Assembly: GCA_001724995.1 (NCBI GenBank)
Contig: MEFD01000018.1
Coordinates: 62,001 to 126,000 of the forward strand
DNA length: 64,000 nucleotides
Source: Rubrivivax sp. SCN 71-131
GTDB taxonomy: Bacteria > Pseudomonadota > Gammaproteobacteria > Burkholderiales > Burkholderiaceae_C
Direction: 5' to 3'
Shown: one piece after another, positions 3,868 through 35,349 of the stretch
Layout: every line of letters begins with the position of its first letter
Numbering within the stretch: position 1 is the stretch's first letter
Notes under the pieces: generated by a model
Told to the model about the DNA's origin: nothing
What the model saw: only the letters and a program-made list of their open reading frames with translations
Database searches by the model: none
Translations under genes and position numbers: made by a program

Positions 3868-4200
3868 ATGCCCATCGAAATCAACGGCAACTCCATCGAG
3901 ACCGACGAGGAGGGCTACCTCGTCAACCTGGCCGACTGGAGCGAGGACATCGCCCACGAGATCGCCAAGTCCGAGAACCTGGAGATGACGCCCAACCACT
4001 GGGAGGTCGTCAACTTCCTGCGCGCGTACTACGACGAATACCAGATCGCGCCCGCGGTGCGCGTGCTGACCAAGGCCATCGGCAAGCAGCTCGGCGAGGA
4101 CAAGGGCAACAGCAAGTACCTCTACGAACTCTTCCCCTACGGCCCGGCCAAGCAGGCGTGCAAGATCGCCGGCCTGCCCAAGCCCACCGGTTGCGTGTAA
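3868..4200 (+). CDS. dsrC: Sulfur carrier protein DsrC (canonical)
   Basis: Small cytoplasmic carrier that receives persulfide from DsrEFH and presents a DsrC trisulfide to DsrAB and DsrMKJOP. It has 110 residues with both redox cysteines in the flexible C-terminal arm: C98 (QACKIAG) and the penultimate C109 (TGCV), 11 residues apart. It is the only one of three DsrC-family proteins in this window with the catalytic pair. A strong AAGGAGG at 3853-3859 precedes the ATG and fits high expression. Confidence 0.97.
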   Translation: MPIEINGNSIETDEEGYLVNLADWSEDIAHEIAKSENLEMTPNHWEVVNFLRAYYDEYQIAPAVRVLTKAIGKQLGEDKGNSKYLYELFPYGPAKQACKIAGLPKPTGCV

Positions 4201-17255: not shown

Positions 17256-18428
17256 ATGACCCGTCTCGTCGACCCGCACGGCAGCGACTGCCTGCGCCCG
17301 CTTCTGCTCCAAGGGCAGGCGCTCGACGAGGAGCGTCGGCGCGCGTCGACGCTGCCCGGCCTGCGCGTGAGCTCGCGCGAGCGTGGCGACATCCTGATGC
17401 TGGGCATGGGCGGCTTCACGCCGCTCGAGGGCTTCATGACGAGCGCCGACTGGCGGGGCGTGTGCGACGACATGCGCCTGGCCAGCGGGCTGTTCTGGCC
17501 GATCCCGATCACGCTGTCGGCCGATGCGGCCGCGGCGGCCGCGATCCGCCCCGGCCAGGAGGTCGCGCTGCTCGACCCGGACGACGGCGCGCCGCTGGCG
17601 ACGATGCGCGTCGAGGAGATCTACGGCATCGACAAGGCGCGCGAATGCGCGGCCGTGTTCGGCACCACCGACGCCGCGCATCCGGGCGTGAAGATGGTGA
17701 TCGAGCAGGGCGGGCTCAACCTCGCCGGGTCGCTGAAGGTGCTGTCGCAGGGAGGCTTCCCCGAGAAGTACGGCGCGCTGTACATGACGCCCGAGCAGAC
17801 GCGCGCGCTGTTTCACGCGCGCGGCTGGTCGCGCGTGGCCGCGTTCCAGACGCGCAACCCGATGCACCGCTCGCACGAGTACCTGGCCAAGATCGCGATC
17901 GAGGTCTGCGACGGCCTGCTCGTGCACTCGCTGCTCGGCGCGCTCAAGCCCGGCGACATCCCGGCCGAGGTGCGCACGCGCGCGATCGCGACGCTGGCGG
18001 AGCACTACTTCGTGCCCTCGACGATCGTGCAGGCCGGCTACCCGCTCGACATGCGCTATGCCGGCCCGCGCGAGGCGCTGCTGCACGCGCTGTTCCGGCA
18101 GAACTACGGCTGCTCGCACCTGGTCGTCGGGCGCGACCACGCCGGCGTCGGCAGCTACTACGGGCCGTTCGACGCGCACCGCATCTTCGACCAGATCCCC
18201 GCCGACGCGCTGCAGACGCGGCCGCTGAAGATCGACGTCTCGTTCTGGTGCTACCGCTGCGGCGGCATGGCCTCGGCACGCACCTGCCCGCACGGCGATG
18301 GCGACCGGCTGCAGGTGAGCGGCACGCAGTTGCGCCAGTGGCTCGGCGAGGGCCACGACGTGCCCGCGGAATTCAGCCGCCCCGAGGTGCTGCAGGTCCT
18401 GCGCGCCTACTACGCCGCAGCCGGCTGA
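17256..18428 (+). CDS. sat: Dissimilatory sulfate adenylyltransferase (ATP sulfurylase)
   Basis: Runs in the energy-conserving direction here: APS plus pyrophosphate gives ATP and sulfate. It has 390 residues, the size of the single-domain dissimilatory enzyme without an APS kinase domain. Active-site motifs are [11 protein letters not shown] and GRDHAGVG. A zinc-type C-x2-C, near YRCGG, and a downstream ARTCPHG are visible. GAGGAGGG at 17238-17245 supports the start. It is followed by aprB and aprA. Confidence 0.96.
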
Positions 18429-18496: not shown

Positions 18497-18970
18497 ATGC
18501 CCACCTACGTACGGACCGACAAGTGCGACGGCTGCAAGGGCCAGGACAAGACGGCCTGCATGTACATCTGCCCGCACGACCTGATGAAGCTCGACAAGGA
18601 CGGCTCCGAGACCGGGCACCCGATGCGCGCCTTCAACCAGGAACCCGAGCAGTGCTGGGAGTGCTACTCCTGCGTCAAGATCTGCCCGCAGAACGCGATC
18701 GAGGTGCGCCACTACGCCGACATCGTGCCGCTGGGCGGCTCGGTGCAGCCGCTGCGCGGTTCCGACTCGATCATGTGGACGATCAAGTTCCGCAACGGCA
18801 CCCTGAAGCGCTTCAAGTTCCCCACGCGCACGACGGAAGAGGGATCGATCCAGCCCTACGCCGGCAAGACGATGCCCAGGCTCGCCGACATCGACAAGCC
18901 CGGCTACTTCACGCCCAGCGGCGGCTACCGCGCCGGCCGCGACGGCGAACTGCTGCGCGTGAAGAAGTAA
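18497..18970 (+). CDS. aprB: Adenylylsulfate reductase beta subunit
   Basis: Iron-sulfur subunit (157 residues) of APS reductase, which oxidises sulfite plus AMP to APS. Two [4Fe-4S] motifs lie in the N-terminal half: CDGCKGQDKTACMYICP and CWECYSCVKICP. The C-terminal tail that wraps around AprA is present. It begins 68 bases after sat with AGGAG upstream, and lies 34 bases before aprA. The order sat-aprB-aprA is common in sulfur-oxidising Beta- and Gammaproteobacteria. Confidence 0.96.
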   Translation: MPTYVRTDKCDGCKGQDKTACMYICPHDLMKLDKDGSETGHPMRAFNQEPEQCWECYSCVKICPQNAIEVRHYADIVPLGGSVQPLRGSDSIMWTIKFRNGTLKRFKFPTRTTEEGSIQPYAGKTMPRLADIDKPGYFTPSGGYRAGRDGELLRVKK

Positions 18971-19004: not shown

Positions 19005-21029
19005 ATGGCAACGTTCGAGAACCCCGAAGTCGTCCGGGAAGAGCTGGACATCCTGCTCATCGGAGGCGGCATGGCCTGCTGCGGCGCCGCCTTCGAGATG
19101 ATGCGCTGGGCCGAGGCCGTGAAGGCCGAGACCGGCCAGGAGCTGAAGATCAAGCTGGTCGACAAGGCCGCGATGGACCGCAGCGGTGCGGTGGCGCAGG
19201 GCCTGTCGGCGATCAACACCTACATCGGCTCCGAGCAGGATCCGGCCGACTACGCGCGCATGGTCAGCAATGACCTGATGGGCATCACGCGCGACGACCT
19301 CGCCTACGACCTCGGGCGCCATGTCGACGAGTCGGTGCACCTGTTCGAGGAATGGGGCCTGCCGATCTGGAAGACCGACGACGATGGCGTACGCCACGAC
19401 GGTGCCGAGTCGCAGAAGGAGGGCCTGCCCGCGCTCAAGGACGGCGGCAAGCCGGTGCGCTCGGGCAAGTGGCAGATCATGATCAACGGCGAGTCCTACA
19501 AGTGGATCGTCGCCGAGGCCGCGAAGAAGGCGCTGGGCCTGGACCGCATCCAGGAGCGCGTGTTCATCGTCAAGCTCGTCAACGACAAGAACGATCCGTC
19601 GCGCATCGCCGGCGCGGTCGGCTTCTCGGTGCGCGAGAACAGGATCTACGTCTACAAGGCCAAGGCCGTGCTGCTGGCCGCCGGCGGCTGCGTCAACCTG
19701 TTCCGCCCGCGCTCGGTGGGCGAGGGCACCGGCCGTGCGTGGTACCCGGTGTGGAACGCCGGCAGCACCTACTCGATGGCTGCCGAGGCCGGCGCCGAGC
19801 TGACGATGATGGAGAACCGCTTCGTGCCGGCGCGCTTCAAGGACGGCTACGGGCCGGTGGGGGCGTGGTTCCTGCTCTTCAAGGCCAAGGCCATCAACGC
19901 CTACGGCGAGGACTACATGGTCAAGAACAAGGAGCTGCTCGACCAGTACCCGCCCTACGGCCAGGCGGCGGTGCCGGCCTCGTGCCTGCGCAATCACCTG
20001 ATGCTCAAGGAGATGAAGGAAGGCCGCGGGCCGATCTACATGGACACCGTGACCGCGCTGGCGGCGCTGCGCGAGTCGCTGTCGCCCAAGGAGGTCAAGC
20101 ACCTCGAGGCCGAGGCCTGGGAGGACTTCCTCGACATGTGCATCGGCCAGTGCGGCATCTGGGTCGGCGAGAACATCGAGCCCGAGAAGAAGATGAGCGA
20201 GCTGATGCCCACCGAGCCCTACCTGCTGGGCTCGCACTCGGGCTGCTGCGGCATCTGGGTCTCGGGCCCGACCGACCTGGGCGCGCCGACGGCCGACGAG
20301 GGCGAGCTCGACGGCGTGCCCGCGCACCTGCCGCGCGGCTGGAGCTGGGGCTACCGTTCGATGACCACGGTCAAGGGCCTGTTCACCGCGGGCGACGGCG
20401 TCGGCGCCTCGGGCCACAAGTTCAGCTCGGGCTCGCACGCCGAAGGCCGCATCGCGGCCAAGGCGATGCTCAGGTTCGCGCTCGACCACAAGGACTGGCA
20501 GCCCGAGCTGGACACCGACGCGGCCACGCTGGCCGAGGAGATCTACAAGCCGGTGCGCACCTACCTGCAGCACAAGGACTACACCACCGCGATCGACGTC
20601 AACCCGCACTACATCACGCCCAAGATGCTGCAGTTCCGGCTGCAGAAGATCATGGACGAGTACGTTGCCGGCGTGGCCACCTACTACAACACCAACGACG
20701 TCATGCTGAAGGTGGCCGAGGAGAAGCTCGAGATGCTCAAGGAGGACGCGGGCAAGATGCGCGCCAAGGACCTGCACGAGCTGCTGCGCGCCTGGGAGAA
20801 CTACCACCGCATCCTCACCGCCGAGGCGCACATGAAGCACATCCAGTTCCGCGAGGAGTCGCGCTATCCGGGCTTCTACTACCGCACCGACAAGAACTTC
20901 GTCGACGAGGAGAACTGGCACGTCTTCGTCAACTCCACGTACGACAAGACGACGCGCAAGTGGACGTGCTTCAAGCGCCGCCACGTCGACCTGGTGGACA
21001 AGAGCAAGCTGTTCAAGAAGGCCGCCTGA
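19005..21029 (+). CDS. aprA: Adenylylsulfate reductase alpha subunit
   Basis: Catalytic FAD subunit of APS reductase, 674 residues. It has an N-terminal dinucleotide fold (LLIGGGMACCGAAFE), the fumarate-reductase-type core, and the conserved stretch HSGCCGIWVSGPTD near residue 410. Electrons from the flavin pass through AprB to a membrane or quinone partner. In this window the candidate partner is the Qmo/Hdr set at 24832-29973, because no aprM-type membrane gene adjoins aprBA. A strong hairpin follows the stop. Confidence 0.97.
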   Translation: MATFENPEVVREELDILLIGGGMACCGAAFEMMRWAEAVKAETGQELKIKLVDKAAMDRSGAVAQGLSAINTYIGSEQDPADYARMVSNDLMGITRDDLAYDLGRHVDESVHLFEEWGLPIWKTDDDGVRHDGAESQKEGLPALKDGGKPVRSGKWQIMINGESYKWIVAEAAKKALGLDRIQERVFIVKLVNDKNDPSRIAGAVGFSVRENRIYVYKAKAVLLAAGGCVNLFRPRSVGEGTGRAWYPVWNAGSTYSMAAEAGAELTMMENRFVPARFKDGYGPVGAWFLLFKAKAINAYGEDYMVKNKELLDQYPPYGQAAVPASCLRNHLMLKEMKEGRGPIYMDTVTALAALRESLSPKEVKHLEAEAWEDFLDMCIGQCGIWVGENIEPEKKMSELMPTEPYLLGSHSGCCGIWVSGPTDLGAPTADEGELDGVPAHLPRGWSWGYRSMTTVKGLFTAGDGVGASGHKFSSGSHAEGRIAAKAMLRFALDHKDWQPELDTDAATLAEEIYKPVRTYLQHKDYTTAIDVNPHYITPKMLQFRLQKIMDEYVAGVATYYNTNDVMLKVAEEKLEMLKEDAGKMRAKDLHELLRAWENYHRILTAEAHMKHIQFREESRYPGFYYRTDKNFVDEENWHVFVNSTYDKTTRKWTCFKRRHVDLVDKSKLFKKAA

Positions 21030-21156: not shown

Positions 21157-22059
21157 ATGAGCGACCCGCGCGCCGACTCCGCCCCGTTCCCGCAAAGCCC
21201 GGTCGTTCCCGCCACGCTCGAGGGCTTGGCGCCGCTCACCTTCCGCTGCCGCAAGGGCATCGCGTGCTGGAACGCCTGCTGCAGCAATATCGACATCGCG
21301 CTCACGCCGGTGGACATCGTGCGTCTGAAGCAGCACCTGGGCCTGGCGTCGTGGGACTTCCTGAAGGATTACACCGTCCCCTACGAGATGGAGAAGGACG
21401 GCCTCGCCGGCGTCAAGCTGCGTCCCGTGGACGGCGGCAGCGCCTGCCGCTTCATGACGGCCGAGGGCTGCAGCGTCTACGACGACCGCCCCACCGCCTG
21501 CCGCTACTACCCGGTGGCGCTGCTGGCGATGCGCAAGCAGGACGAGGCCTTCGATCGCCAGTACTACGCGATCGTGCGCGAGGCGCATTGCCTGGGCCAC
21601 GCCGAGCCCCGCACGCAGACGATCGACGCGTACCGCGCCGAGCAGGGGGTCGTCGCGTACGACGAGGCGGCGCGCGGCTGGCGCCAGCTGATCCTGAAGA
21701 AGAAGAGCTCCGGCCCGACGATCGGCAAGCCGAGCAAGCGCAGCCTCGAGCTGTTCTTCATGACCTGCTACGACGTCGACCGCTTTCGCGCCTTCGTCGC
21801 CAGCGAGGCGTTCGCCGGCGTGTTCGACCTGCCGGACGAGGAGCTGCGCGCGGCGCTGGTCGACGACCTCGCGCTGCTGCAGTTCGGATTCCGCTTCCTG
21901 CGCCAGGTGCTGTTCGGCGAGACGACGATCGCGCTGCGCAGCGACAGCGTCGAGCAGCGGCGTGCGCGCATGGCCGAGCAGCGTGCGCGCGTCGAGCGCG
22001 AGGCTGCCGAGCGACTGGCGCGCGATGACGACGAGGGCGGCGCCTTTGTCGACCTCTGA
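21157..22059 (+). CDS. YkgJ-family cysteine-cluster protein
   Basis: A 300-residue protein of the YkgJ/UPF0153 metal-cluster family. The N-terminal half carries the cysteine set CRKGIACWNACC, CRFMTAEGCSVYDDRPTACRYYP and HCLGH, expected to bind zinc or an Fe-S cluster. The C-terminal part is helical and arginine-rich. Function is not known for the family. It starts 128 bases after aprA and overlaps the next gene by 35 bases. Confidence 0.82.
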   Translation: MSDPRADSAPFPQSPVVPATLEGLAPLTFRCRKGIACWNACCSNIDIALTPVDIVRLKQHLGLASWDFLKDYTVPYEMEKDGLAGVKLRPVDGGSACRFMTAEGCSVYDDRPTACRYYPVALLAMRKQDEAFDRQYYAIVREAHCLGHAEPRTQTIDAYRAEQGVVAYDEAARGWRQLILKKKSSGPTIGKPSKRSLELFFMTCYDVDRFRAFVASEAFAGVFDLPDEELRAALVDDLALLQFGFRFLRQVLFGETTIALRSDSVEQRRARMAEQRARVEREAAERLARDDDEGGAFVDL

Positions 22060-22447: not shown

Positions 22448-22837
22448 TCACACCTGCCGCCACGGCAGGCCGTGCTTGCGCCAGCCGCCGAGCGTGCCGC
22501 GATGGTGCTCGGCGTCGAGCGCGCCCTCGAAGCCCTCGAGCACGTTGCTGACTTGGGTGAAGCCGTTCTTCTCCAGCTCGAGCCCGGCGTCGACCGAGCG
22601 CTTGCCGCTGCGGCAGAGCAGGATGATCGGGCGGTCCTTGCGGCCGGCCATGCGCAGCACCTCGTCGGTGAAGTGCGGATTGGGCTCGAAGTCGGGCCCC
22701 TGGTTCCACTCGATGTTGATGGCGTCCAGGGGGTGCCCGACGTAATAGAACTCGACCTCGGTGCGGCAGTCGATCAGCAGCGTGTTCGGACTGCCGGCGA
22801 CGATCTCGTAGGCCTGTTTCGGGTGCAGGTGTTCCAT
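22448..22837 (-). CDS. Rhodanese-domain sulfurtransferase
   Basis: A 129-residue single rhodanese domain with the active-site loop CRSGKRS (cysteine near residue 75) and the usual LIDCRTEVEF opening strand. A longer frame runs to 22939, but I start at the ATG at 22837 because it opens the domain directly. It is divergent from a DsrC-family gene at 23076 and convergent with mazG. Either the persulfide form or the neighbour pairing could link it to sulfur transfer; that is inferred. Confidence 0.86.
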   Translation of the reverse strand: MEHLHPKQAYEIVAGSPNTLLIDCRTEVEFYYVGHPLDAINIEWNQGPDFEPNPHFTDEVLRMAGRKDRPIILLCRSGKRSVDAGLELEKNGFTQVSNVLEGFEGALDAEHHRGTLGGWRKHGLPWRQV

Positions 22838-22925
22838 GATGCTCGCGTTCGAGAGGACGCCGGGCCGCCCCTGGCGGCACGTTGCGTGCGCCGCGAATTC
22901 TCGCCGCCGACGCGGGCACGGCAAC

Positions 22926-22994
22926 GACCGATTGGTCATATCGATATTCCGGCGTGGTTCCTGCGCTCCTTATCACCCGCGGCGATGAGCTCAT
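22926..22994. promoter_or_regulatory. Palindromes between the rhodanese and DsrC-like genes
   Basis: The 238-base divergent region has an AT-rich island with GACC-GATT-GGTC at 22926-22937, directly followed by ATATCGATAT at 22938-22947, and further on ATGAGCTCAT at 22985-22994. These are the most AT-rich bases nearby and suit a bidirectional promoter with operator sites. No regulator can be assigned from sequence. Confidence 0.4.
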
Positions 22995-23075: not shown

Positions 23076-23423
23076 ATGATCGTCGAAGCCGCCACCGCCC
23101 GCCCCGCCGCCCCCGGCGTCGCGCCGATCGCGTTCGACGACTCCGGATTCCTCGCCGATCCGCGTGCCTGGACGCCCGCGCTGGCAGAGCGGCTCGCGCT
23201 GATCGACGGCATGAGCGGCCTGGGCGCCACGCACTGGGAGATCATCGATCAAGTGCGCGAGCGCTGGTTCAGGCTTGGCGCGCTGCCGGTGATGCGTCTG
23301 GTGTGCCGCGCGGTGCAGGTCGATCCGCATGCCGCGCACCGCCTGTTCCGCAGCTGCCGCAGCCTGTGGCGCATCGCCGGGCTGCCGGATCCCGGCGAGG
23401 AGGCGCGGGCCTACATGAACTGA
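23076..23423 (+). CDS. DsrC/TusE-family protein lacking both catalytic cysteines
   Basis: A third DsrC-family protein, 115 residues. The fold signature is present (FDDSGFLADPRAW, THWEIIDQVRERW, and RIAGLPDP near the end). Aligning RIAGLPDP with the KIAGLPKP of DsrC puts W98 where DsrC has its first redox cysteine. The tail continues GEEARAYMN with no terminal cysteine. Cysteines C77 and C94 exist but at other positions. It is therefore neither DsrC nor TusE in the usual sense. The ATG at 23076 has GGAG upstream. Divergent rhodanese and convergent FccB-like neighbours suggest a sulfur-linked, perhaps regulatory, role. Confidence 0.82.
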   Translation: MIVEAATARPAAPGVAPIAFDDSGFLADPRAWTPALAERLALIDGMSGLGATHWEIIDQVRERWFRLGALPVMRLVCRAVQVDPHAAHRLFRSCRSLWRIAGLPDPGEEARAYMN

Positions 23424-23513: not shown

Positions 23514-24779
23514 CTATCCGAGCATCGCGTGCCAGATGCTGTTGCCCCAGTCGATGGCGCCCTTGCTCGACGTGGCGTTGGCGGTCTGATCGACCTCGTA
23601 CCTGATCTTCGGCGGATCGCCGACGGCGACGCTGGCATTGACGTTGATCATGATGGCCAGCGAAGTGGAGACCTTGCCCCAGCAGATCGCCGCCGGCAGC
23701 GTGACCTCGTCGCCCAAGTCGGCTTCCCTGTACTTGCCGTCGACGGTGGCGAGGATCTGCGCGCCGACCTGCTGGCCGGTGCCGAAGGCGATGTGGCCGC
23801 TCTTGGGCAACGGCGAACCCTGGGAGTCGCCGATGATGAAGACGTTCTTGTCCGCCTTGCTCTGGAAGGTGGGCAACTCGATGGTCGCGAAACGCTCGCC
23901 GAGACCGGCCTTGCGGATCAGCCCGGGCGCGCGCATCGGCGGGATGATGTTGGCGTGGTTGAAGGCGATGTCGCCCTTGCTGGTGGACAGCACCTTCCGG
24001 CCGGCATCGATCGACTTCGGATCGGCTTCGGTGATGTATTCAATCTGACTGCCGTACATCTCGCGCATCGCCGTCTCCATCGGCCTGGCCATCGGCGGCG
24101 GCATCGGATGCTTGTTGGCGTCGACGACGATGATCTTGCCCTTCGTTGCCTTCTCCTTCATGCGCTGGGCGATCAGGCAGGCGCGCTCGTAGGGTGCCGG
24201 AGGGCAGCGATAGGGCGGCTTCGGCACGGAGATGATGAAGTTGCCGCCCTGCTCCAGGAAAGCGGCCACCTGGCGCTGCACCGCCGACTGCTCGAAGGCG
24301 CGGAAACCGACGGGGAACTGCTCGCGCGCCGCCGCCAGGCCCGGCAGCGCTTCCTCCATGTACTCCAGGCCGGTGGCCAGCACGAGGAAGTCATAGGGGA
24401 TGCTTTGCGTCGCGGTCTTCACCGTGCGCCCGGCGCGATCGATGTCGACGACGCGGTCCTTCACCGGGCGCACGCCGAGCGCGTCGACGGCGCCGTAGCT
24501 GCGCTGGAAGTTGCTGGCCGGAGCGTATCCGGCGATGTATAGGACGCTGAGCGGACACGACATGAAGCCGTCGTTGGGTTCGATCAGCGTGATGTCGACC
24601 TTGCCGCCGGCGGCCAGCGTGCGCACCGCGCCGAGGCCGCCCCAGCCGCCCCCCACCACCACCACGCGCGGCCGCGGGCTGGTGGCCACCTGGCTGGCGC
24701 AGCCCACGACGGAAACCGCGGTGGCGGCCGCCGTGCCCTTCAGCAAGGTGCGTCGCTTGAGAGAGCTGATCACTTTCAT
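23514..24779 (-). CDS. FccB/SoxF-like sulfide dehydrogenase flavoprotein, Tat lipoprotein
   Basis: Flavocytochrome c sulfide dehydrogenase flavoprotein-type subunit, 421 residues, expected to oxidise sulfide in the periplasm. The N-terminus has a twin-arginine motif (KRRTLLKG) and a lipobox-like VVGC at C27. The FAD fold is VVVGGGWGGLG. Redox cysteines are C192 and C201 (CPPAPYERAC) with C366 (AICWGK), as in FccB. No cytochrome subunit gene (FccA or SoxE) lies next to it. AGGAGG precedes the ATG at 24779. It ends an operon behind hdrB, 52 bases downstream of it. Sulfide:quinone reductase is less likely because of the Tat signal and the CPPAPYERAC motif. Confidence 0.88.
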   Translation of the reverse strand: MKVISSLKRRTLLKGTAAATAVSVVGCASQVATSPRPRVVVVGGGWGGLGAVRTLAAGGKVDITLIEPNDGFMSCPLSVLYIAGYAPASNFQRSYGAVDALGVRPVKDRVVDIDRAGRTVKTATQSIPYDFLVLATGLEYMEEALPGLAAAREQFPVGFRAFEQSAVQRQVAAFLEQGGNFIISVPKPPYRCPPAPYERACLIAQRMKEKATKGKIIVVDANKHPMPPPMARPMETAMREMYGSQIEYITEADPKSIDAGRKVLSTSKGDIAFNHANIIPPMRAPGLIRKAGLGERFATIELPTFQSKADKNVFIIGDSQGSPLPKSGHIAFGTGQQVGAQILATVDGKYREADLGDEVTLPAAICWGKVSTSLAIMINVNASVAVGDPPKIRYEVDQTANATSSKGAIDWGNSIWHAMLG

Positions 24780-24831: not shown

Positions 24832-25734
24832 CTATCTCTTCTGCGCCAGCTCCTGCAGCCGGGTCGGTGCAATGACGTGGCCGTCGAGCCCGGCTTCCTC
24901 GGGCGTGCCGCCGTAGGCCACCGTCATCAGCTGGCTGTAGTAGGTCACGGGCATGTTGAGCTTCGTGCCCTGCTTGCGGTTGATCTCGCCCTGATAGACC
25001 TCGACGTTGGTCTGGCACAGCGGGCAGGGCGTGACGATCATGTCGGCGCCGTGGTCGTAGGCGGACTCGACGATGTCGCGGATCTGCTTCTGGCTCTTGT
25101 CGGGCTCGCTGAAGGCGAGCGCGCCGCCGCAGCAGGTGACCTTGTGCTCGTAGTCCTTCACCGGCTCGGCGCCCAGGGTCTCGACCAGGCGGTCGAGGTA
25201 CATCGGATTCTCGAAGCTCTCGCCGGCGATGCCGAAGGGCCGGTTGGTCTGGCAGCCGACGTAGCCGGCGAACTTCAGGCCCTCGAGCGGCTTCTTCACC
25301 GGCCGGCCCAACTCCTCGTAGCCGAAGTCCTCGATCAGTACCTCGACCATGTGCTTGACCGGGGCCTGGCCCTTGTACTCGAGCCCGGCGGCCTTCAGCG
25401 CCTGGTTGGCGCGGGCCATGAACTCGCGGTCGCGGTCGAGCCTTTCCTTGCTCTCGCGCGCATTGAGCCAGCAGGCCGCGCAGGTGGCCACCACGTCCTT
25501 CCCCGGCAGGTGCTTCTCGGCCAGCGCGAAGTTGCGCGCGTTCAGCGTATGGCGCTTGAGCTCGCTGGCGCCGGTGTAGCTGATCGAGGCGCCGCAGCAG
25601 TTCCAGTCGGGAATCTCGGTGAGCTGGATGTCCAGTGTCCTGCACATCGAGTTCGTCGAGGTCAGGTAGTTGGCCGCCGAGGCCTTGAGCTGCGAGCTGC
25701 AGCCCGGGTAGAACGCATATTCCTTCCTGGCCAT
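24832..25734 (-). CDS. hdrB: HdrB-like heterodisulfide reductase subunit
   Basis: A 300-residue protein with two complete CCG domains. The first has PGCSSQL, NCCGAS and CAAC, the second VGCQTN, TCCGGA and CPLC. These bind the noncubane [4Fe-4S] clusters of heterodisulfide reductase-type active sites. It follows hdrC by 31 bases in the qmoA-qmoB-hdrC-hdrB operon. In some Gram-positive sulfate reducers hdrCB stands in for qmoC behind qmoAB; the same arrangement is seen here. It lacks membrane segments. Confidence 0.92.
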   Translation of the reverse strand: MARKEYAFYPGCSSQLKASAANYLTSTNSMCRTLDIQLTEIPDWNCCGASISYTGASELKRHTLNARNFALAEKHLPGKDVVATCAACWLNARESKERLDRDREFMARANQALKAAGLEYKGQAPVKHMVEVLIEDFGYEELGRPVKKPLEGLKFAGYVGCQTNRPFGIAGESFENPMYLDRLVETLGAEPVKDYEHKVTCCGGALAFSEPDKSQKQIRDIVESAYDHGADMIVTPCPLCQTNVEVYQGEINRKQGTKLNMPVTYYSQLMTVAYGGTPEEAGLDGHVIAPTRLQELAQKR

Positions 25735-25765
25735 TTCGCTGTGTGTCTCCTGCTGGTGTCGTGCG

Positions 25766-26422
25766 CTAGCGCGGCCCCGACGTGGCGGATGCGGCGGCCG
25801 CGGCCGCGGCGCGGTCCTGGCGTTCGATCTCGTCGACGGCGTCGAGCATCGCGGCCAGCCCGCGCGAGTCCTTGACCTTGTGGCCCCCCAACAGCTCCAG
25901 GGGATCGAGCCGGCCGGCCTTGAGCAGCGCCAGGCCGACGTGGCGCATCTCCCAGCCCTTCTTCAACCCGGCGACGAAGCCGTCCTTGAAGTACAGCCCG
26001 AGCGTGAGCTTCAACTCGTTGACGCGGCCGGTGCGGCGGAAGTTGTTCCAGAAGCGCAGCGAGAAATCGCGCGTGGGCTGCAGCTTCGGTGCCAGGCCCA
26101 GGCGGTGCGAGTACTGCGCCAGCCCGTGCATGATCGTCGTGATCGGCAGCTTGCGCGGGCAACGCACGACGCAGTTGTAGCAGCTGGTGCACATCCACAT
26201 CGCGTCGGAGCGCAGCACGTCCTCGCGCCGGCCGGCGCGGATCATCATGAAGATCTTCTGCGGCGAGTGCTCCCAGTGCGCGCCGAGCGGGCACGAGCCC
26301 GCGCACACGCCGCACTGCATGCACATCTTCACCATGGCGCCGCCCTCGACCTCGCGCTCGACTTCGCGCAGGAAGTCGGGTCGGTAGGGCGCAGCACTCA
26401 CGTTCGGGGTCGGGGAGTCCAT
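25766..26422 (-). CDS. hdrC: HdrC-like iron-sulfur subunit
   Basis: A 218-residue electron-transfer protein with two [4Fe-4S] motifs, CMQCGVCAGSCP and CTSCYNCVVRCP, in the first 90 residues. QmoC is an HdrC-like domain fused to a cytochrome b membrane domain; here no membrane domain follows. The alanine-rich C-terminus ends the protein. It starts 10 bases after qmoB, so it is part of that operon. Confidence 0.92.
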   Translation of the reverse strand: MDSPTPNVSAAPYRPDFLREVEREVEGGAMVKMCMQCGVCAGSCPLGAHWEHSPQKIFMMIRAGRREDVLRSDAMWMCTSCYNCVVRCPRKLPITTIMHGLAQYSHRLGLAPKLQPTRDFSLRFWNNFRRTGRVNELKLTLGLYFKDGFVAGLKKGWEMRHVGLALLKAGRLDPLELLGGHKVKDSRGLAAMLDAVDEIERQDRAAAAAAASATSGPR

Positions 26423-26432
26423 CGCGGCATCC

Positions 26433-28685
26433 TCAGGCGAAACCCTTCATCGGGCTCATGCCGATGGCGGCGATCTGCGCCACGTAGTCGTCGATCAGCC
26501 GCGGCAGCCGCTCGATGTCGGTGATCGCCACCTCGTGGCTGACCACGCGCTCGGTCTCCAGGCCGAGCTGCTGCAGCGTGTCGCCGATCTTGCTCATGCG
26601 GTAGTGCGCCATCTCGGAGCCCTTGACGAAGTGGCACTGGTAGTCGTCGCCCTTCTGGCAGCCGAGCAGCATGACGCCGTCCCAGCCGCCGTTGAGCGCG
26701 TCGGTGATCCAGATCGTGTTCACCGAGCCGAGGCAGCGCACCGGGATCACGCGCACGAAGGCCGACACCGTGCGCCGCTGCAGCGCCGCCATGTCCAGCG
26801 CCGGGTAGGCGTCGTTCTCGCAGGCAAGGATCAGGATGCGCGGCTTGCCGCTGTCCTCGTCGGGCATGTCGACGGCCTTGATCTGCGCGCCCACGCTGTC
26901 GACCGAGTAGTTCTCGAACGAGATCACGCGCACCGGGCAGGCGCCCATGCAGGTGCCGCAGCGGCGGCAGCGGCTCTCGTTGAAGAGCGGGAAGCGCTTC
27001 TCGTCCTCGTCGATGGCGCCGAACGGGCATTCGACCGTGCAGCGCTTGCACTGCGTGCAGCCCTCGAGGCGCACGATCGGGTAGCTCAGGTCGCCGCTGC
27101 GCGGATGCGCGGCGCGGCCGAGCGCCGCGTTCTCGACCGCCTGGATCGCCTTCATCGCCGCGCCCGTGGCGTCCTCCACCGCCTGCGCGATGTCCATCGG
27201 GCGGCGCGTCGGGCCGGCGGCGTAGATGCCGGTGCGCCGCGTCTCATAGGGAAAGCAGATGAAGTGCGAGTCGGCGAAGCCGTGCTTGAGCTGGGGCAGA
27301 TCGGGCCCCTGGCGGTACGCGAGGTTCAGCACCGACGCCTTGGCCAGCGCGCCCTTGTGCCCGGCCGCGGCGGCGTCGCCGCTCTCGGCGGCAGTGACCG
27401 CGGCGTCCCACTGCTCGAGGTCGACGCCGGCGTTGGCCACCTGGCCGGTGGCGAGCACGACGAGGTCGGCGTCGGCCACCGCGTCCTCGTCGAGGATCAG
27501 GTCGCGCAGGCGCACGCGCACGCCGTCGCCCGCCGCTTCGACCGCCTGCGCCACGCCCTTGGTGAAGGTCACGCCCTTGTGCTGCGCGCTGCGGTAGAAG
27601 TCCTCGGCCATGCCGGGCGTGCGCAGGTCGGTGTAGAGCACCATCGCGCTGGCTTGTGCGTCGGCATCCTTCAGGTACATGGCCTGCTTGATGCTGGTGC
27701 CGCAGCAGTGGCCCGAGCAGTAGGGCAGATGCTTGCCGCTCGTGTCGCGCTGCCCGGCGCACTGCACGAAGACCACGCTCTTCACCGGCCGGCCGTCGCT
27801 GCGCCGGATCGGGGCGCCGCCCGCGGCGCGCGCCAGCGCCTCGAAGCCGGCCTGGTCGATCACGTGCGCATGCACGCCGCCGCCCAACTCGGGCAGCCTG
27901 GCGATGTCGTAGGCGGCAAAGCCGCTGGCCTGCACGATGGCGCCGCAGAGCGCCTCGCTGGCGCTGCCGTCGGCACGCTCGATGCGCACCTGGAAGCGCC
28001 CCGGCGCGCCGGCGGTGCGCGCCACGCGCGCGCCCAGCATCAGCTCGATGCGCGGGTGCGTGCCGGCGCGCTCGATCAAGGCGTCGATGCCGGTGTCCAC
28101 CGGCTCGCCATAGGGCTCGCGCGAGGGCGTGCGCTTCCACAGCCTGGCCGTCCAGCCGCCGAGCGCGGCCTCGCGCTCGACGAGCAGCACGTCGTAGCCG
28201 GCGTCGGCGGCCTCGAGCGCCGCGGTCAGGCCGCTCACGCCGCCGCCGACGACGAGGATGCGGCGCGCGTCGCCGCGGTTGGGGTTGCCGGCCGGCACCT
28301 TGAGCTTCTTCAGCTCGGCGCAGGCCATGCGCACGTAGTCGTCGGCCATCTCCTGGCGCACCTCGTCGTGCGCCTCGCCTTCGGCCACCATCCACAGCAC
28401 GCCCTCGCGCAGGTTGGCGCGCGCCAGCGCCCGCTCGGGGAAGTGGAAGGCCTCGGTCTTCATGCGGCGCGAGCAGGCCGCGAGCATGAGGTGCGTGACC
28501 GCTTCCTCGCCCTCGAGGTCGGCGCGGATCGCGGCCACGCCCTCGTCGCTGCACAGGAACGGGTGCTCGCGCACCAGCGCCATCTTGCCCTCGCGCCGGG
28601 CCACCTTGGCCAGCTGCGCAACGTCGAGCCGCTCGCCGATGCCGCAGCCGGTGCAGATGTAGGCGGCGGTCCTGATGTCAGCCAT
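26433..28685 (-). CDS. qmoB: QmoB-like HdrA/MvhD flavoprotein
   Basis: A 750-residue subunit of the quinone-interacting oxidoreductase that pairs with APS reductase. It has an FAD fold (VVGGGVSGLTAAL near residue 146), the HdrA signature VQCAGQRDT with CSGHCC, two [4Fe-4S] motifs (CTQCKRCTVECP and CRRCGTCMGACP), and a C-terminal MvhD/FlpD-like domain (LACENDAYPA, VRCLGSVN, LLGCQKGDD). An extra N-terminal segment carries ICTGCG. Its ATG overlaps the qmoA stop by 8 bases. Confidence 0.92.
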   Translation of the reverse strand: MADIRTAAYICTGCGIGERLDVAQLAKVARREGKMALVREHPFLCSDEGVAAIRADLEGEEAVTHLMLAACSRRMKTEAFHFPERALARANLREGVLWMVAEGEAHDEVRQEMADDYVRMACAELKKLKVPAGNPNRGDARRILVVGGGVSGLTAALEAADAGYDVLLVEREAALGGWTARLWKRTPSREPYGEPVDTGIDALIERAGTHPRIELMLGARVARTAGAPGRFQVRIERADGSASEALCGAIVQASGFAAYDIARLPELGGGVHAHVIDQAGFEALARAAGGAPIRRSDGRPVKSVVFVQCAGQRDTSGKHLPYCSGHCCGTSIKQAMYLKDADAQASAMVLYTDLRTPGMAEDFYRSAQHKGVTFTKGVAQAVEAAGDGVRVRLRDLILDEDAVADADLVVLATGQVANAGVDLEQWDAAVTAAESGDAAAAGHKGALAKASVLNLAYRQGPDLPQLKHGFADSHFICFPYETRRTGIYAAGPTRRPMDIAQAVEDATGAAMKAIQAVENAALGRAAHPRSGDLSYPIVRLEGCTQCKRCTVECPFGAIDEDEKRFPLFNESRCRRCGTCMGACPVRVISFENYSVDSVGAQIKAVDMPDEDSGKPRILILACENDAYPALDMAALQRRTVSAFVRVIPVRCLGSVNTIWITDALNGGWDGVMLLGCQKGDDYQCHFVKGSEMAHYRMSKIGDTLQQLGLETERVVSHEVAITDIERLPRLIDDYVAQIAAIGMSPMKGFA

Positions 28686-29973
28686 GCGAAGCCTCGGCGC
28701 GTGCGTTGCGGTGGATGACCTGGATGCCGCGCAGCGCCGCCGCGGTGGCGCTCTGCACCGCGCGGTTCACGTCCAGCGGCGCGGCGGCGGCGCCGGCGGC
28801 GATCTGGCCGCCGCTCGTGCTGCCCTCGAGGAAGCCGCTCGAATCGCGCACGATCTCCTCTGGCAGCTGCAGGCCCTCGGTCTCGGGCTGCATGCCGATC
28901 GCCAGCACGACCAGGTCGTGCGCGTTGGTGTAGCGGTGGTAGCCCTCGGTGTCGACGCCGTGCAGCACCGGGTTGGCGCTCGCCGCGTCCTGCGCGATGC
29001 GCGCGACCTTGCTCTTGATGAAGGTGACCAAGGGGTCGGCGTGCACGCGGGCGCTGAAGTCCTCCAGCCGGTCGATGGCGCGGATGTCGATGTAGTAGAC
29101 GGTCGACCTCGCATCGCCCTCGGGATAGGCCGCGCGCACGTACTGCGTCTGCTTCAGCGTGGCCATGCAGCAGATGCGCGAGCAGTGGCGCAGGTGGTTC
29201 TCGTCGCGCGAGCCCGCGCACTGGATGAAGGCGATGTTGCGCGCCGGCTGGCCGTCGCTCGGGCGCAGCAGGCGCCCGCCGGTGGGGCCGGCAGGGTCGG
29301 CCAGGCGCTCGAACTCGACGCTGGTGATGACGTTCTTGAAGCGCCCGTAGCCGTAGGGCTGGATGCGCGCGGCGTCGTAGGGCCGCCAGCCGGTGGCCCA
29401 GATCACGCTGCCGGCGGCGAGCTCGAGCGTGCGCTCGGGCATGTCGAGGTCGATGGCGCCCACCGGACAGGCCGCGCGCGCCTGCTCGGCCTCGGGCGTG
29501 CCGATGATCGAAGGGTCCAGCACGTAGCGCTGCGGGTGCGCCAGGCCGTGCGGCAGGTACGCCGCCGGCATCTGGTCGAGGCCGTAGTTGTAGGGGTTGG
29601 GGATGCGCGCCGTCACCGCGCGCGCGCACTCGCCGCAGGCGGTGCAGCGCTCCGTGACGTAGCGCGGGCGCTGGCGCACGCTGACCCGGTAGTCGCCGGC
29701 ACGGCCCTGCACCGCGGTCACCTCGGCCATCGTCAGCACGCGCACCCGGCGGTTGGCGCGCAGCCGGCGCAGGTTGACTTCCAGCCCGCATGTCGGGTGG
29801 CACATCTTCGGGAAGTAGCGGTACAGCCGCGCCGTGCGCCCGCCGAGCGCGGGTTCGCGCTCGATCAGGATCACCTCGCGGCCGGCCTCGGCGGCCTCCA
29901 GCGCCGCGGTCATGCCGCTGATGCCCCCGCCCACCACCAGCAGCGTCGGGTTGCCGGCCACCGTGTCCATCAT
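28678..29973 (-). CDS. qmoA: QmoA-like HdrA flavoprotein
   Basis: A 431-residue HdrA-type flavoprotein. It has an N-terminal FAD motif (VVGGGISGMTAAL), a cysteine cluster near residues 58-62 (CHPTC), another around 107 (CTACGEC) and the HdrA signature VQCAGSRDE with CSRICC. Together with QmoB it is expected to move AprBA electrons to a quinone or thiol/disulfide acceptor. It lies 25 bases after the phosphodiesterase gene and overlaps qmoB. The ATG at 29973 or 29970 could serve equally. Confidence 0.92.
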   Translation of the reverse strand: MMDTVAGNPTLLVVGGGISGMTAALEAAEAGREVILIEREPALGGRTARLYRYFPKMCHPTCGLEVNLRRLRANRRVRVLTMAEVTAVQGRAGDYRVSVRQRPRYVTERCTACGECARAVTARIPNPYNYGLDQMPAAYLPHGLAHPQRYVLDPSIIGTPEAEQARAACPVGAIDLDMPERTLELAAGSVIWATGWRPYDAARIQPYGYGRFKNVITSVEFERLADPAGPTGGRLLRPSDGQPARNIAFIQCAGSRDENHLRHCSRICCMATLKQTQYVRAAYPEGDARSTVYYIDIRAIDRLEDFSARVHADPLVTFIKSKVARIAQDAASANPVLHGVDTEGYHRYTNAHDLVVLAIGMQPETEGLQLPEEIVRDSSGFLEGSTSGGQIAAGAAAAPLDVNRAVQSATAAALRGIQVIHRNARAEASHG

Positions 29974-30764: not shown

Positions 30765-33710
30765 ATGGCGCACGCACCGCTGCACGATCCGATCGCCGAT
30801 CCCGGCGCGCAGGCGGGCTGCGAGATCCGCACGACCACCTGCTACATGTGCGCCTGCCGCTGCGGCATCCGCGTGCACCTGCGTGGCGGCGAGGTGCGCT
30901 ACATCGAAGGCAAGCCCGAGCACCCGCTGAACCAGGGCGTCATCTGCGCCAAGGGCAGCTCGGGCATCATGAAGCAGTATTCGCCGGCGCGGCTGACGCA
31001 GCCGCTGCGGCGCAAGGCCGGGGCCGCGCGCGGAGACAACGCCTTCGAGCCCATCTCCTGGGACGAGGTGCTGGCGCTGCTGGAGCAGCGGCTGCGCCGG
31101 TTGCGCGCCACCGACCCCAAGCAGTTCGCGTTGTTCACCGGGCGCGACCAGATGCAGGCGCTCACCGGCCTGTTCGCGCGCCAGTTCGGCACGCCCAACT
31201 ATGCCGCCCACGGCGGCTTGTGCTCGGTCAACATGGCCGCCGGCATGATCTACACGATCGGCGGCAGCTTCTGGGAGTTCGGCGGCCCGGACCTCGAGCG
31301 CGCGCGGCTGTTCGTGATGATCGGCACCGCGGAGGACCACCACTCCAACCCGATGAAGATCGCGCTGAGCAGGTTCAAGCGCCAGGGCGGGCGCTTCATC
31401 GCCATCAACCCGGTGCGCAGCGGCTATGCCGCCATCGCCGACGAATGGGTGCCGATCAGGCCCGGCACCGACGGTGCGCTGCTGCTGGCCATCGTGCACG
31501 AGATACTCGCGCGCGGCCTCTACGACCGCGAGTTCCTCGTCCGCTACACCAACGCCGGCCAGTTGGTGAATCAGGACGAGGCCAGCGACGACTTCGGTCT
31601 CATGCTGCGCAACCCCGCGGGCGACGTCGGCAACCCCCTGCGGCCGCACAATTTCTTCTGGTGGGACCGCCACTCGGGGCTGCCGGTGGCCGACCATGCC
31701 GAGGGCGCCGACCCGGCGCTGCTGGGCCGCTTCACGATGCCCGAGGGACCGCTGGCGGGCACGCCGGCGGCGCCCGCCTTCCAGCTGCTGCAGGAGCGCG
31801 TCAAGCCCTACACGCCGCAGTGGGCCAGCGGCATCACCGGCATCCCGGCGGACACCATCCGCCGCCTGGCGCACGAGATGGGCATCACGGCGCGCGACCA
31901 GAAGATCGAGCTGCCCATCGCCTGGACCGACAGCTGGGGCCGCCAGCACGATTCGGTCACCGGCAACCCGGTGGCCTTTCACGCGATGCGCGGCCTCGCC
32001 GCGCACAGCAACGGCTTTCACACCGTGCGCACGCTGGCCATCCTGATGAGCCTGCTGGGCACCATCGACCGCCCCGGCGGCTTTCGCCACAAGGCGCCGT
32101 ACCCGCGCGCGGTGCCGCCCAATGCGCGCCCGCCCAGGGGGCCGGACGACGTCCGGCCCGACACGCCGCTGAACGGCGCGCCGCTGGGCTGGCCCGAGGG
32201 CCCGGAGGACCTCTTCGTCGACGCCCAGGGCGAGCCGGTGCGCATCGACAAGGGCTTCAGCTGGGAGCACCCGCTGTCGGCGCACGGGCTGATGCACAGC
32301 GTCATCACCAACGCCTGGCGCGGCGACCCCTACCCGATCGACACGCTGCTCATCTTCATGGCCAACATGGCCTGGAACTCGACGATGAACACGTCCGAGG
32401 TCCGCCGCTTGCTCGAGGACCGGCATGTCGGCGGCGACAGGGACGGCGAGTACAAGATCCCCTTCCTCGTGGTGTGCGACGCCTTCCAGAGCGAGATGAC
32501 GGCGTTTGCCGACCTCATCCTGCCCGACACCACGTACCTCGAGCGCCACGACTGCATGTCCCTCCTGGACCGGCCGATCTCGGAGTTCGACGGGCCGGTG
32601 GACTCGGTACGCATTCCGGTGCTGGCGCCCACCGGCCAGTGCCGGCCGTTCCAGGAGGTGCTGGTCGAGCTGGCCTCGCGGCTGCAGTTCCCGGCGTTCA
32701 CGAACCCCGACGGCAGCCGCAAGTTCCGCGACTACCCCGACTTCGTCGTCAACTTCGAGACCGCGCCCGGCTCGGGCATCGGCTTCCTGGCCGGCTGGCG
32801 CGGCAAGGGCGGCGAGAAGTCGATGCGCGGCGAGCCCAATCCGCGGCAGTGGGAGATGTATGCGCAGAACCAGTGCTTCTTCCAGCACCGGCTGGCGCCC
32901 CAGCACCAGTACATGCGCAACTGGAACGACGGCTACATGCGCTGGGCGCAGGCGGCGGGCCTGCGCCGCGACCACGACCCCATCGTCATCCACCTGTACA
33001 GCGAATTCCTGCAGCGTTTCCGGCTGGCGGCGCAGGGGCGCCACAAGGGCCGGCAGCCACCCGAGCGGCTGCGCGCGCGCGTGCAGACCTACTTCGACCC
33101 GCTGCCGTTCTGGTACGCGCCGCTGGAGGAGCAGGCCACCGACACCGCGCGCTACCCGCTCAACGCGGTGACGCAGCGGCCGATGGCGATGTACCACTCC
33201 TGGGACTCGCAGAACGCCTGGCTGCGCCAGATCCACACCTACAACTTCCTCATGGTCAATACCCGCACGGCGCAGGCCGCCGGCATCGCCGACGGCGCCT
33301 GGATGTGGGTCGAGTCGCCCTGGGGGCGGGTGCGCTGCCTGTGCCGCCACAGCGAGGCCGTGGAGCCCGGCACCGTCTGGACCTGGAACGCCATCGGCAA
33401 GGCCGCCGGCGCCTGGAACCTCGGCCCCGAGGCCAACGAATCGCGCCTGGGCTTCCTGCTCAACCACCTGATCCGGGAGGAGCTGCCGGGCCCCGGCGGC
33501 ACGACGCTCTCCAACAGCGACCCCATCACCGGACAGGCGGCGTGGTACGACGTGCGCGTGCGCATCGAGCCCGCGCTGCCGGGCGAGCCCGCCCGGAGCT
33601 GGCCGCAGACCGACGCGCCGATGACTCCCGTGCCCGGCATGGCCAGGGCGCCGCGGCGCCGCGGCTGGATGGCCGGCCTCGGCGCGGGCAGGCGGGGGCG
33701 CGCGGCGTGA
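30765..33710 (+). CDS. soeA: SoeA, molybdopterin subunit of cytoplasmic sulfite dehydrogenase
   Basis: Complex iron-sulfur molybdoenzyme catalytic subunit, 981 residues. The N-terminal [4Fe-4S] site is CYMCACRC, with a fourth cysteine in GVICAKG. The protein has no Tat or Sec signal, consistent with the cytoplasm-facing sulfite dehydrogenase SoeABC and against exported Psr/Phs enzymes. It is expected to oxidise sulfite directly to sulfate and pass electrons to quinone. The C-terminus is arginine-rich. The stop overlaps the GTG start of soeB. Confidence 0.9.
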   Translation: MAHAPLHDPIADPGAQAGCEIRTTTCYMCACRCGIRVHLRGGEVRYIEGKPEHPLNQGVICAKGSSGIMKQYSPARLTQPLRRKAGAARGDNAFEPISWDEVLALLEQRLRRLRATDPKQFALFTGRDQMQALTGLFARQFGTPNYAAHGGLCSVNMAAGMIYTIGGSFWEFGGPDLERARLFVMIGTAEDHHSNPMKIALSRFKRQGGRFIAINPVRSGYAAIADEWVPIRPGTDGALLLAIVHEILARGLYDREFLVRYTNAGQLVNQDEASDDFGLMLRNPAGDVGNPLRPHNFFWWDRHSGLPVADHAEGADPALLGRFTMPEGPLAGTPAAPAFQLLQERVKPYTPQWASGITGIPADTIRRLAHEMGITARDQKIELPIAWTDSWGRQHDSVTGNPVAFHAMRGLAAHSNGFHTVRTLAILMSLLGTIDRPGGFRHKAPYPRAVPPNARPPRGPDDVRPDTPLNGAPLGWPEGPEDLFVDAQGEPVRIDKGFSWEHPLSAHGLMHSVITNAWRGDPYPIDTLLIFMANMAWNSTMNTSEVRRLLEDRHVGGDRDGEYKIPFLVVCDAFQSEMTAFADLILPDTTYLERHDCMSLLDRPISEFDGPVDSVRIPVLAPTGQCRPFQEVLVELASRLQFPAFTNPDGSRKFRDYPDFVVNFETAPGSGIGFLAGWRGKGGEKSMRGEPNPRQWEMYAQNQCFFQHRLAPQHQYMRNWNDGYMRWAQAAGLRRDHDPIVIHLYSEFLQRFRLAAQGRHKGRQPPERLRARVQTYFDPLPFWYAPLEEQATDTARYPLNAVTQRPMAMYHSWDSQNAWLRQIHTYNFLMVNTRTAQAAGIADGAWMWVESPWGRVRCLCRHSEAVEPGTVWTWNAIGKAAGAWNLGPEANESRLGFLLNHLIREELPGPGGTTLSNSDPITGQAAWYDVRVRIEPALPGEPARSWPQTDAPMTPVPGMARAPRRRGWMAGLGAGRRGRAA

Positions 33711-34435
33711 CCCAGCTCGCCCTGGTCATCGACCTCAACGTCTGCGTCGGATGCCACGCCTGCGTGACCAGCTGCAAGCAGTGGAACACCTCGGGCGCGG
33801 CGGGGCCGCTGTTCGACGACGAGCCCTACGGTGCCGATCCGAGCGGCACCTTCTTCAACCGCGTGCAGACGTTCGAGGTCGGCGCGTTCCCGCACACGCA
33901 GACGGTGCACTTCCCCAAGAGCTGCCTGCACTGCGAGGACCCGCCCTGCGTGCCCGTGTGCCCCACCGGCGCCAGCTACAAGCGCGCCGAGGACGGCATC
34001 GTGCTCGTCGACTACGACAAGTGCATCGGCTGCAAGTACTGCAGCTGGGCCTGCCCCTACGGCGCGCGCGAGCTCGACGGGGAACGCAAGGTGATGGCCA
34101 AGTGCACGCTGTGCGTGGACCGCATCACCGACCTGCGGCTGCCGCCGGCCGAGCGCAAGCCGTCCTGCGTGCTGGCCTGCCCCGCGCAGGCGCGCCTGTT
34201 CGGCGACGTGCACGACCCCGACTCGGCGGTCTCGGTGGCCATCCGCGAGCACGGCGGCTATACGCTGATGCCCGAGTGGAACACGCGCCCGTCCAACCAT
34301 TACCTGCCACGCCGGCGCACCGGGGCGACCCTGCACGCCGAGGACCTGGTGCGCGTGGACAATCCACTCAAGCTTGACGGCCAGCAGCCCGAGCCGCCGG
34401 TGCAGGGCGCCGGGCGCGAGGACTTCGCGACATGA
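33707..34435 (+). CDS. soeB: SoeB, iron-sulfur subunit of sulfite dehydrogenase
   Basis: DmsB-type electron-transfer protein of 242 residues with four [4Fe-4S] cluster regions: CVGCHACVTSCK, CLHCEDPPCVPVCP, CIGCKYCSWACP and CTLC with a later CVLACP. It lacks a signal peptide and so stays cytoplasmic with SoeA. The GTG at 33707 overlaps the soeA stop (GTGA), and its own stop overlaps the soeC ATG (ATGA), so the three are tightly coupled. Confidence 0.93.
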   Translation: MTQLALVIDLNVCVGCHACVTSCKQWNTSGAAGPLFDDEPYGADPSGTFFNRVQTFEVGAFPHTQTVHFPKSCLHCEDPPCVPVCPTGASYKRAEDGIVLVDYDKCIGCKYCSWACPYGARELDGERKVMAKCTLCVDRITDLRLPPAERKPSCVLACPAQARLFGDVHDPDSAVSVAIREHGGYTLMPEWNTRPSNHYLPRRRTGATLHAEDLVRVDNPLKLDGQQPEPPVQGAGREDFAT

Positions 34436-35349
34436 ACCCGGCCTTCTCCGTCATCTTCCTCACCACGCTGATCGGCGCCGGGCAGGGGCTGTTCCTGGCG
34501 CTGTTCGCCGCCGAGCTGGCGGGCTTGGCCGAACACGACTTCCTGCTCGCGGCCGGCACGGTCTCGCTGGCGCTCACGGCGCTTGGCCTGCTGGCCTCCT
34601 TCTTCCACCTCGGGCGGCCCGGGCGCGCCTGGCGCGCGGCGGCGATGTGGCGTAGTTCGTGGCTGTCGCGCGAGGTCATCGTGCTGCCGCTGTTCATGGT
34701 CGGCGTCTTCTTCTGGACCCTCGGCCATGCCCTGGGCGCCCGCCTGCTGCTCGTGGGCGTGCTCACCACGCTGGCGTGCGTGGCGCTTTTCGTCTGCACG
34801 GCGATGATCTACGCCTCGCTGCGCTTCCTGCAGGAATGGGCCAGCGCCTACACGCTGCTCAACTACACGCTGCTGGGCCTGGCCTCGGGCGGCACGCTGG
34901 CCACGGCGCTGGCCGCCTTCGGCGCGCCGCGGTGGGTGCCTGGCTTCGGCGCCGCGGCGCTGGGCTTCACGCTCGCCGGCGCCATCAGCCGCGTCCTGTC
35001 GCTGCGGCGCAATGCGCGCCTCGAGCCCTTGTCGACGCCGCAGACGGCCATCGGCGTGCGCCATCCGCGCGTGGTGCAGCGCTCGATGGGCTTCATGGGC
35101 GGCTCGTTCAACACGCGCGAGTTCTTCCACGGCTGTGCGCCCGGCGCGCTGCGGCAGATCAAGTGGGGCTTTCTCCTCGGCGCCTTCGCGCTTCCGCTGG
35201 CGCTGCTCGCCGCGGGGCTGGCGGCCGGCTCGGCGCCGCTGCTGGCGCTGGCCTTCGCGGTGCAGTTCCTGGGCCTGCTGGCCGAGCGCTGGTTCTTCTT
35301 CGCGCAGGCCAACCACCCGCAGAACCTCTACTACCAGGCGGTGAGCTGA
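34432..35349 (+). CDS. soeC: SoeC, DmsC-type membrane anchor
   Basis: Polytopic membrane subunit of 305 residues with about eight hydrophobic segments, homologous to DmsC-type anchors. It would hold SoeAB on the cytoplasmic face and reduce quinone. Features include the charged loop HLGRPGRAWRA near residue 65 and the C-terminal ERWFFFAQANHPQN. It overlaps soeB by 4 bases and the next gene by one base (TGATG). Confidence 0.9.
   Translation: MNPAFSVIFLTTLIGAGQGLFLALFAAELAGLAEHDFLLAAGTVSLALTALGLLASFFHLGRPGRAWRAAAMWRSSWLSREVIVLPLFMVGVFFWTLGHALGARLLLVGVLTTLACVALFVCTAMIYASLRFLQEWASAYTLLNYTLLGLASGGTLATALAAFGAPRWVPGFGAAALGFTLAGAISRVLSLRRNARLEPLSTPQTAIGVRHPRVVQRSMGFMGGSFNTREFFHGCAPGALRQIKWGFLLGAFALPLALLAAGLAAGSAPLLALAFAVQFLGLLAERWFFFAQANHPQNLYYQAVS

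Follow-up and report, generated by a model that had tools for sequence, protein, structure and literature searches.

A 64,000-nucleotide stretch of Rubrivivax sp. SCN 71-131 (contig MEFD01000018.1, positions 62,001 to 126,000; hereafter the window) was analyzed in this study, which revealed an operon, qmoA-qmoB-hdrC-hdrB, for a predicted QmoAB-HdrCB (HdrAACB) complex of the kind known from sulfur oxidizers. With a probability of roughly 0.82, this complex is the electron outlet of an adenosine 5′-phosphosulfate (APS) reductase, AprBA, of the Qmo-docking type (lineage II); the figure covers the identity of the operon and its role as a conduit and excludes the last step of the electron path. The complex and its electron path are predictions from sequence; what is established is the gene set, its constant order, the co-variation of its members, and a genome in which neither QmoC nor AprM was found.

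The four genes form one minus-strand unit (24832–29973) of intact frames, each closed by a single stop codon. The ends of qmoA and qmoB share 8 bases, and the remaining gaps are 10 and 31 bases. Their naming in the original prediction, made from this DNA alone, is borne out by coordinates, domains and Kyte–Doolittle values, as are the two complete CCG domains and the absence of membrane segments. HdrB retains all ten ligand cysteines (12/46/47/85/88 and 161/201/202/237/240) in two Pfam CCG stretches, and HdrC has eight cysteines with 4Fe-4S dicluster matches. No 19-residue segment of QmoA, QmoB, HdrC or HdrB reaches a mean Kyte–Doolittle value of 1.6, a level reached by 33 segments of AprM and 63 of SoeC used as controls.

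The AprB encoded in the window carries KGQDK, which fits the KGXD/EK/R loop suggested as a possible Qmo docking site by Meyer and Kuever (PMC2211403), and that 2008 report already proposed QmoAB(-HdrBC) as the probable partner of AprBA of lineage II. The loop is absent from lineage-I AprB (0/30), and aprM is present in 29 of the 30 lineage-I loci, the remaining one (L031) being a shorter locus. The source genome does not match this AprM-linked type, defined by an aprM upstream of aprBA, as aprM was not found in it. Four genomes encode lineage-II AprBA with neither a QmoB nor an HdrB match: G311 (L121), G055 (L120), G093 (L118) and G214 (L119). AprM is present in G311, which is one contig, and in G055, and is lacking in G093 and G214; of the four AprB, that of L119 has an altered docking loop, and those of L118, L120 and L121 retain it intact.

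The source genome is a draft of 3.92 Mb in 43 contigs with 98.2% completeness. Nothing in it scored above the cut-off of 300 of the qmoC model, a cut-off used without a positive control and with no canonical QmoABC or Gram-positive sequence compared; the best match was hdrC itself (50 bits, profile positions 4–83 of 360) and the second a weak CCG protein (19.8 bits). AprM, defined from seven lineage-I loci, gave no match in the genome. An intact qmoC or aprM elsewhere in the genome would have refuted the original prediction; a separate qmoC was rejected because only hdrC and one CCG protein answered the model, as was a separate aprM for want of any match. Since no QmoC was found in the draft, AprBA electrons would not travel via QmoC and its cytochrome b, in agreement with the original prediction, unless that gene sits in the missing part of the genome. 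The CCG proteins of the genome comprise three besides HdrB and one window stretch taken for dsrK. No conserved membrane gene lies 3′ of hdrB: over 36 loci, no following gene is shared by more than three, and a gene for a substrate-binding protein follows in L087, L088 and L116.

QmoAB-HdrCB is the common arrangement among the sampled Gammaproteobacteria (369 genomes of the class). aprA above the cut-off was identified in 103 of these genomes, and HdrB, QmoC and AprM were counted in 80 of the 103, with 23 lineage-I-only genomes left out. HdrB matches at 1e-10 were found in 55/80, comprising 54 of the window type and one that is 33% identical (G167); QmoC above the cut-off was found in 0/80, and AprM in 26/80, six of which also have window-type HdrB. 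Six genomes have neither window-type HdrB nor AprM (G259, G093, G214, G208, G215 and G183), although G208 and G183 contain an HdrC-like match nonetheless. Across the class, window-type HdrB (at least 54% identity, two partial rows counted) occurs in 59/369 genomes, and 57 of the 59 have aprA, which in three is fragmentary or below the cut-off; the other two are G134 and G270. G107 and G224, sampled from the window's own family, have neither HdrB nor aprA, so the trait is patchy in that family.

The gene order is fixed far beyond chance. The full qmoA-qmoB-hdrC-hdrB order is present in 38 of 40 fetched loci with window-type HdrB; L090 ends at a contig edge before qmoA, and in L107 hdrB lies apart. 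A scan with one genome per species gave at least 560 places that encode an HdrB relative, of which the best 80 were used: the order is full in 67, 12 are too near the locus end, and hdrB lies apart in one (L199, the same genome as L107 judged by the place of aprA). These best 80 of at least 560 bear proteobacterial names only (for example, Thiobacillus, Gallionella, Sulfurisoma, Thiohalocapsa, Sedimenticola, Thiodiazotropha and Thioploca). aprA was identified in 40/50 of the named genomes (50 of 79 used), and for G401, one of the 10 misses, it adjoins the operon in L201. The closest relatives of the window HdrB are 69% identical among the sampled genomes and 87% identical for the best other protein among the matches listed. 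With an arrangement this common, the question of where AprBA electrons finally go bears on many sulfur oxidizers. A second, partial HdrB (63–64%) lies downstream of the operon in L105 (11894–12193; G350).

The original prediction had tied the layout to Gram-positive sulfate reducers; the view that it would be out of the ordinary in a sulfur oxidizer is not supported by these counts or by the literature of 2008–2023. The layout is not new, as published reports place QmoAB-HdrBC in sulfur oxidizers explicitly since 2014 (PMC4136832, PMC6397845, PMC10504309, PMC11596669). qmoAB-hdrBC was described in the sulfur oxidizer strain Hiromi 1, and also in some Chlorobi and Thiobacillus denitrificans, with a function that was "not clear" (PMC4136832); AprM and HdrAACB/QmoABHdrCB were among the proteins compared over 82 strains in 2019 (PMC6397845); QmoAB-HdrBC or AprM was noted in other sulfur oxidizers in 2023 (PMC10504309); and QmoAB-HdrBC is present in Thiobacter aerophilum (PMC11596669). 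According to these reports, the sulfur-oxidizing Beta- and Gammaproteobacteria Hiromi 1, T. denitrificans and T. aerophilum share qmoAB with hdrBC and have aprBA in a separate cluster (PMC4136832, PMC11596669, PMC6397845), and Hiromi 1 likewise lacks AprM and QmoC. No difference in kind from this sulfur-oxidizer HdrAACB was found, and the operon is an ordinary member of a known arrangement.

Among other known systems, the Gram-positive sulfate reducers Desulfotomaculum ruminis and Acididesulfobacillus acetoxydans share QmoAB and HdrBC, and D. ruminis is described as lacking QmoC (PMC3569383, PMC8982180); their complex works toward APS reduction and is likened here by description, not by sequence. 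For sulfate reducers without QmoC, one report considers membrane coupling not possible (PMC10504309). QmoABC of sulfate reducers and Chlorobi shares QmoA, QmoB and an HdrC-like iron–sulfur domain, whereas the fused cytochrome b part of QmoC is absent from the window, where HdrC has no transmembrane segments. Methanogen HdrABC and the hdrCBAhyphdrCB set share the HdrB fold and the ligands of two CCG cluster sites. Unlike the operon with its two HdrA-like genes, methanogen HdrABC has a single HdrA, and the sHdr set hdrCBAhyphdrCB has another gene order and an HdrB in a clade separate from that of the window.

It is very unlikely that hdrCB comes from a separate catabolic hdr set, or that the operon is a relic unlinked to AprBA, although G134 and G270 encode window-type HdrB without aprA, and about 3.8 kb of the window separates the operon from aprBA, which is on the other strand. 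In a tree of 52 HdrB rows, a branch (99/97) separates the 43 from qmoAB loci from five that belong to hdr sets in this class (HdrC-HdrB next to an HdrA-like protein, presumptively labeled sHdr). A place of hdrCB within a separate catabolic set would have refuted the original prediction, but HdrB does not group with the sampled HdrB of hdr sets. Branches are long for L133, L134 and L135 and where the methanogen rows attach, which makes the placing of outgroups unsure; the branch of the window HdrB is also long. Over 43 loci, the distances of QmoA, QmoB, HdrC and HdrB are correlated (r 0.68–0.77), a level that none of 500 permutations reached for any pair, and this co-variation, the intact frames and the aprA of 57/59 carriers likewise argue against a separate set or a relic. 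G134 (L135 and L166; 98% complete) encodes qmoAB-hdrCB, dsrEFH-like genes and a two-cysteine dsrC, whereas neither aprA nor dsrA gave a match. Its HdrB has substitutions at sites that are conserved elsewhere and is identical to that of L169, an Ectothiorhodospiraceae metagenome-assembled genome. As proof of independence from AprBA, G134 is weakened by these unusual substitutions.

In the proposed path, AprBA would oxidize sulfite and adenosine monophosphate to APS, and Sat would finish sulfate formation. Electrons would exit via AprB into the flavins and clusters of QmoAB and pass through two cubane clusters of HdrC and then two noncubane clusters of HdrB, with HdrCB taking the place held by QmoC or AprM in other lineages. 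For the last step we lean slightly, and at less than even odds, toward HdrCB reaching the quinone pool directly as a heme-free peripheral module, by analogy with SdhB/SdhE of methylmenaquinol:fumarate reductase (MFR). The layout had been said to imply a cytosolic acceptor, which does not follow: SdhE of Wolinella, the HdrB-related anchor of a quinol enzyme, carries a ten-cysteine motif and has no predicted transmembrane domain (PMC2680327), and HdrC resembles the SdhB of that enzyme, so the solubility of HdrCB alone says little about where its acceptor lies. HdrB is like SdhE of MFR and of E-type succinate:quinone oxidoreductase (SdhABE) in having ten cysteines and no predicted transmembrane helix, whereas the flavoprotein partner in the operon is QmoAB. 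Conservation of the eight HdrC cysteines (45/45), the ten HdrB ligands (45–46/46) and the four cysteines of the MvhD-like tail of QmoB (43–45/45) makes a disulfide site and plain electron transfer both possible. The comparison narrows the vague cytosolic acceptor to two concrete endings, the quinone module or DsrC.

The MFR SdhB model matches HdrC in 66/66 proteins at E 1e-8 or better; the match covers the C-terminal half in the window (residues 71–197) and a similar range in L079, L096, L098 and L099. Among controls, hdr-set HdrC of L129 and L126 gave no match to it at 1e-3, and a short HdrABC-type HdrC (L134) gave 2.3e-4. The likeness is partial, with HdrC and HdrB of the window scoring 49 and 178 bits versus curated MFR SdhB and SdhE cut-offs of 600 and 500. 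The SdhB likeness is not peculiar to Qmo operons, as a cyanobacterial HdrC encoded beside an HdrB scored 46.7 bits and L129 is matched by two further models of SdhB type (33 and 29 bits). Several results weigh against a quinone end. SdhE and HdrB models score nearly equally on the window HdrB, for which reason HdrB alone was rejected as evidence of a quinone role; its fold is that of a plain HdrB with no extra membrane element, and no convincing amphipathic membrane helix was found. No solved MFR or Qmo chain is among the Foldseek top matches listed (VIA-align) for either model, which excludes nothing.

No comparison of SdhB/SdhE with HdrCB was met in the searches aimed at it, which covered open-licence papers only. 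The wider proposal, that in sulfur oxidizers generally the HdrCB of the QmoAB complex serves as a peripheral quinone module without heme and shares ancestry with the C-terminal half of SdhB plus SdhE, is somewhat unlikely. If true, AprBA electrons would still reach quinone, without cytochrome b and its charge translocation, and many proteobacterial sulfur oxidizers would be misread by the argument from solubility to a cytosolic acceptor.

The second ending shares the conduit and is possible, if doubtful: HdrB may reduce a cytosolic disulfide, likeliest oxidized DsrC, from which DsrMKJOP would pass electrons to quinone. The dsrC gene of the window encodes a candidate partner, but co-occurrence with dsr tells little, being near-universal in these genomes, and was rejected as proof of a DsrC partner because dsrA is present in 52/54 carriers of window-type HdrB; in G067 and G270 a dsrB end is near a contig end, and the missing dsrA may be an assembly gap. 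The ten cysteines are undecisive, as they also occur in SdhE of a quinol enzyme (PMC2680327). In G186 (81% complete), none of the four DsrC homologues inspected, of seven, has the both-cysteine end, and the altered HdrB of G134 may be that of a relic.

Electron confurcation or bifurcation via the QmoB tail, with AprBA electrons joined to those of a low-potential carrier, is improbable, even though QmoA and QmoB are HdrA-like flavoproteins, the MvhD cysteines are kept, and bifurcation via Qmo or Hdr has been proposed by others (PMC4949241, PMC8269255). The tail, through which the original prediction had named confurcation as one option, is kept throughout the sampled family and does not mark the source genome. 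Moreover, the potential of the sulfite/APS couple is about −60 mV; its electrons run downhill to ubiquinone, and coupling is not needed.

Around the operon (Table 1), reverse-dsr genes (dsrA, two of the DsrE family, dsrC, a dsrL-like gene and NrfD by domain) occupy the plus strand at the window start, followed by sat-aprBA; dsrA scored above the model cut-off. soeABC-like genes, divergent from qmoA, and a TauE exporter lie on the other side of qmoA. Sulfite is thus probably oxidized in the cytoplasm by two parallel routes, AprBA and SoeABC-like. soeABC-like genes are near the operon in 5/40 of the loci L078–L117 (L088, L095, L104, L108 and L110) and in 7/80 named-genome loci.

Table 1. Coordinates of the operon and of related sulfur-metabolism genes in the window.
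Feature	Position	Strand	Description	Support
qmoA	28678..29973	-	HdrA-like flavoprotein, 431 amino acids	NCBIfam HdrA2 (NF040770) 337 bits; PDB HdrA chain 5odc_A E 8.8e-71
qmoB	26433..28685	-	HdrA-like flavoprotein, 4Fe-4S sites, C-terminal FlpD/MvhD, 750 amino acids	PF02662 residues 617-742, E 9.1e-37; HdrA2 361 bits
hdrC	25766..26422	-	soluble two-[4Fe-4S] protein, 218 amino acids; C-terminal half MFR SdhB-like	
hdrB	24832..25734	-	300 amino acids, two complete CCG domains, no transmembrane segment	
sat	17256..18428	+	ATP sulfurylase, start inferred	named by reading alone; homologues adjoin aprBA in other loci
aprB	18500..18970	+	APS reductase beta subunit, KGQDK loop of Qmo-linked lineage	TIGR02060 above cut-off
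aprA	19005..21029	+	APS reductase alpha subunit	TIGR02061 915 bits (cut-off 641.75)
soeABC-like	30765..35349 (30765-33710, 33740-34435, 34432-35349)	+	Molybdopterin, Fer4_11 and DmsC domains	Soe name inferred from domains and setting
dsrC	3868..4200	+	both redox cysteines, C-terminus ...QACKIAGLPKPTGCV; candidate disulfide partner	PF04358

Several smaller genes were also observed in the window. A CxxCxxCC (PF03692) protein is encoded after aprA (21157–22059, plus strand), with a homologue in 11 of 14 fetched loci showing aprA. Directly 3′ of hdrB lies a gene for an FccB-like flavoprotein with a possible twin-arginine translocation signal (23514–24779, minus strand); among the other loci listed, none has such a gene in this place. 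Near the qmo operon, a DsrC/TusE-family protein below the curated cut-off and lacking both redox cysteines (23076–23423, plus strand) is adjoined by a rhodanese gene (22448–22939), and a further TusE/DsrC-family gene lies outside the dsr cluster (12346–12654, plus strand).
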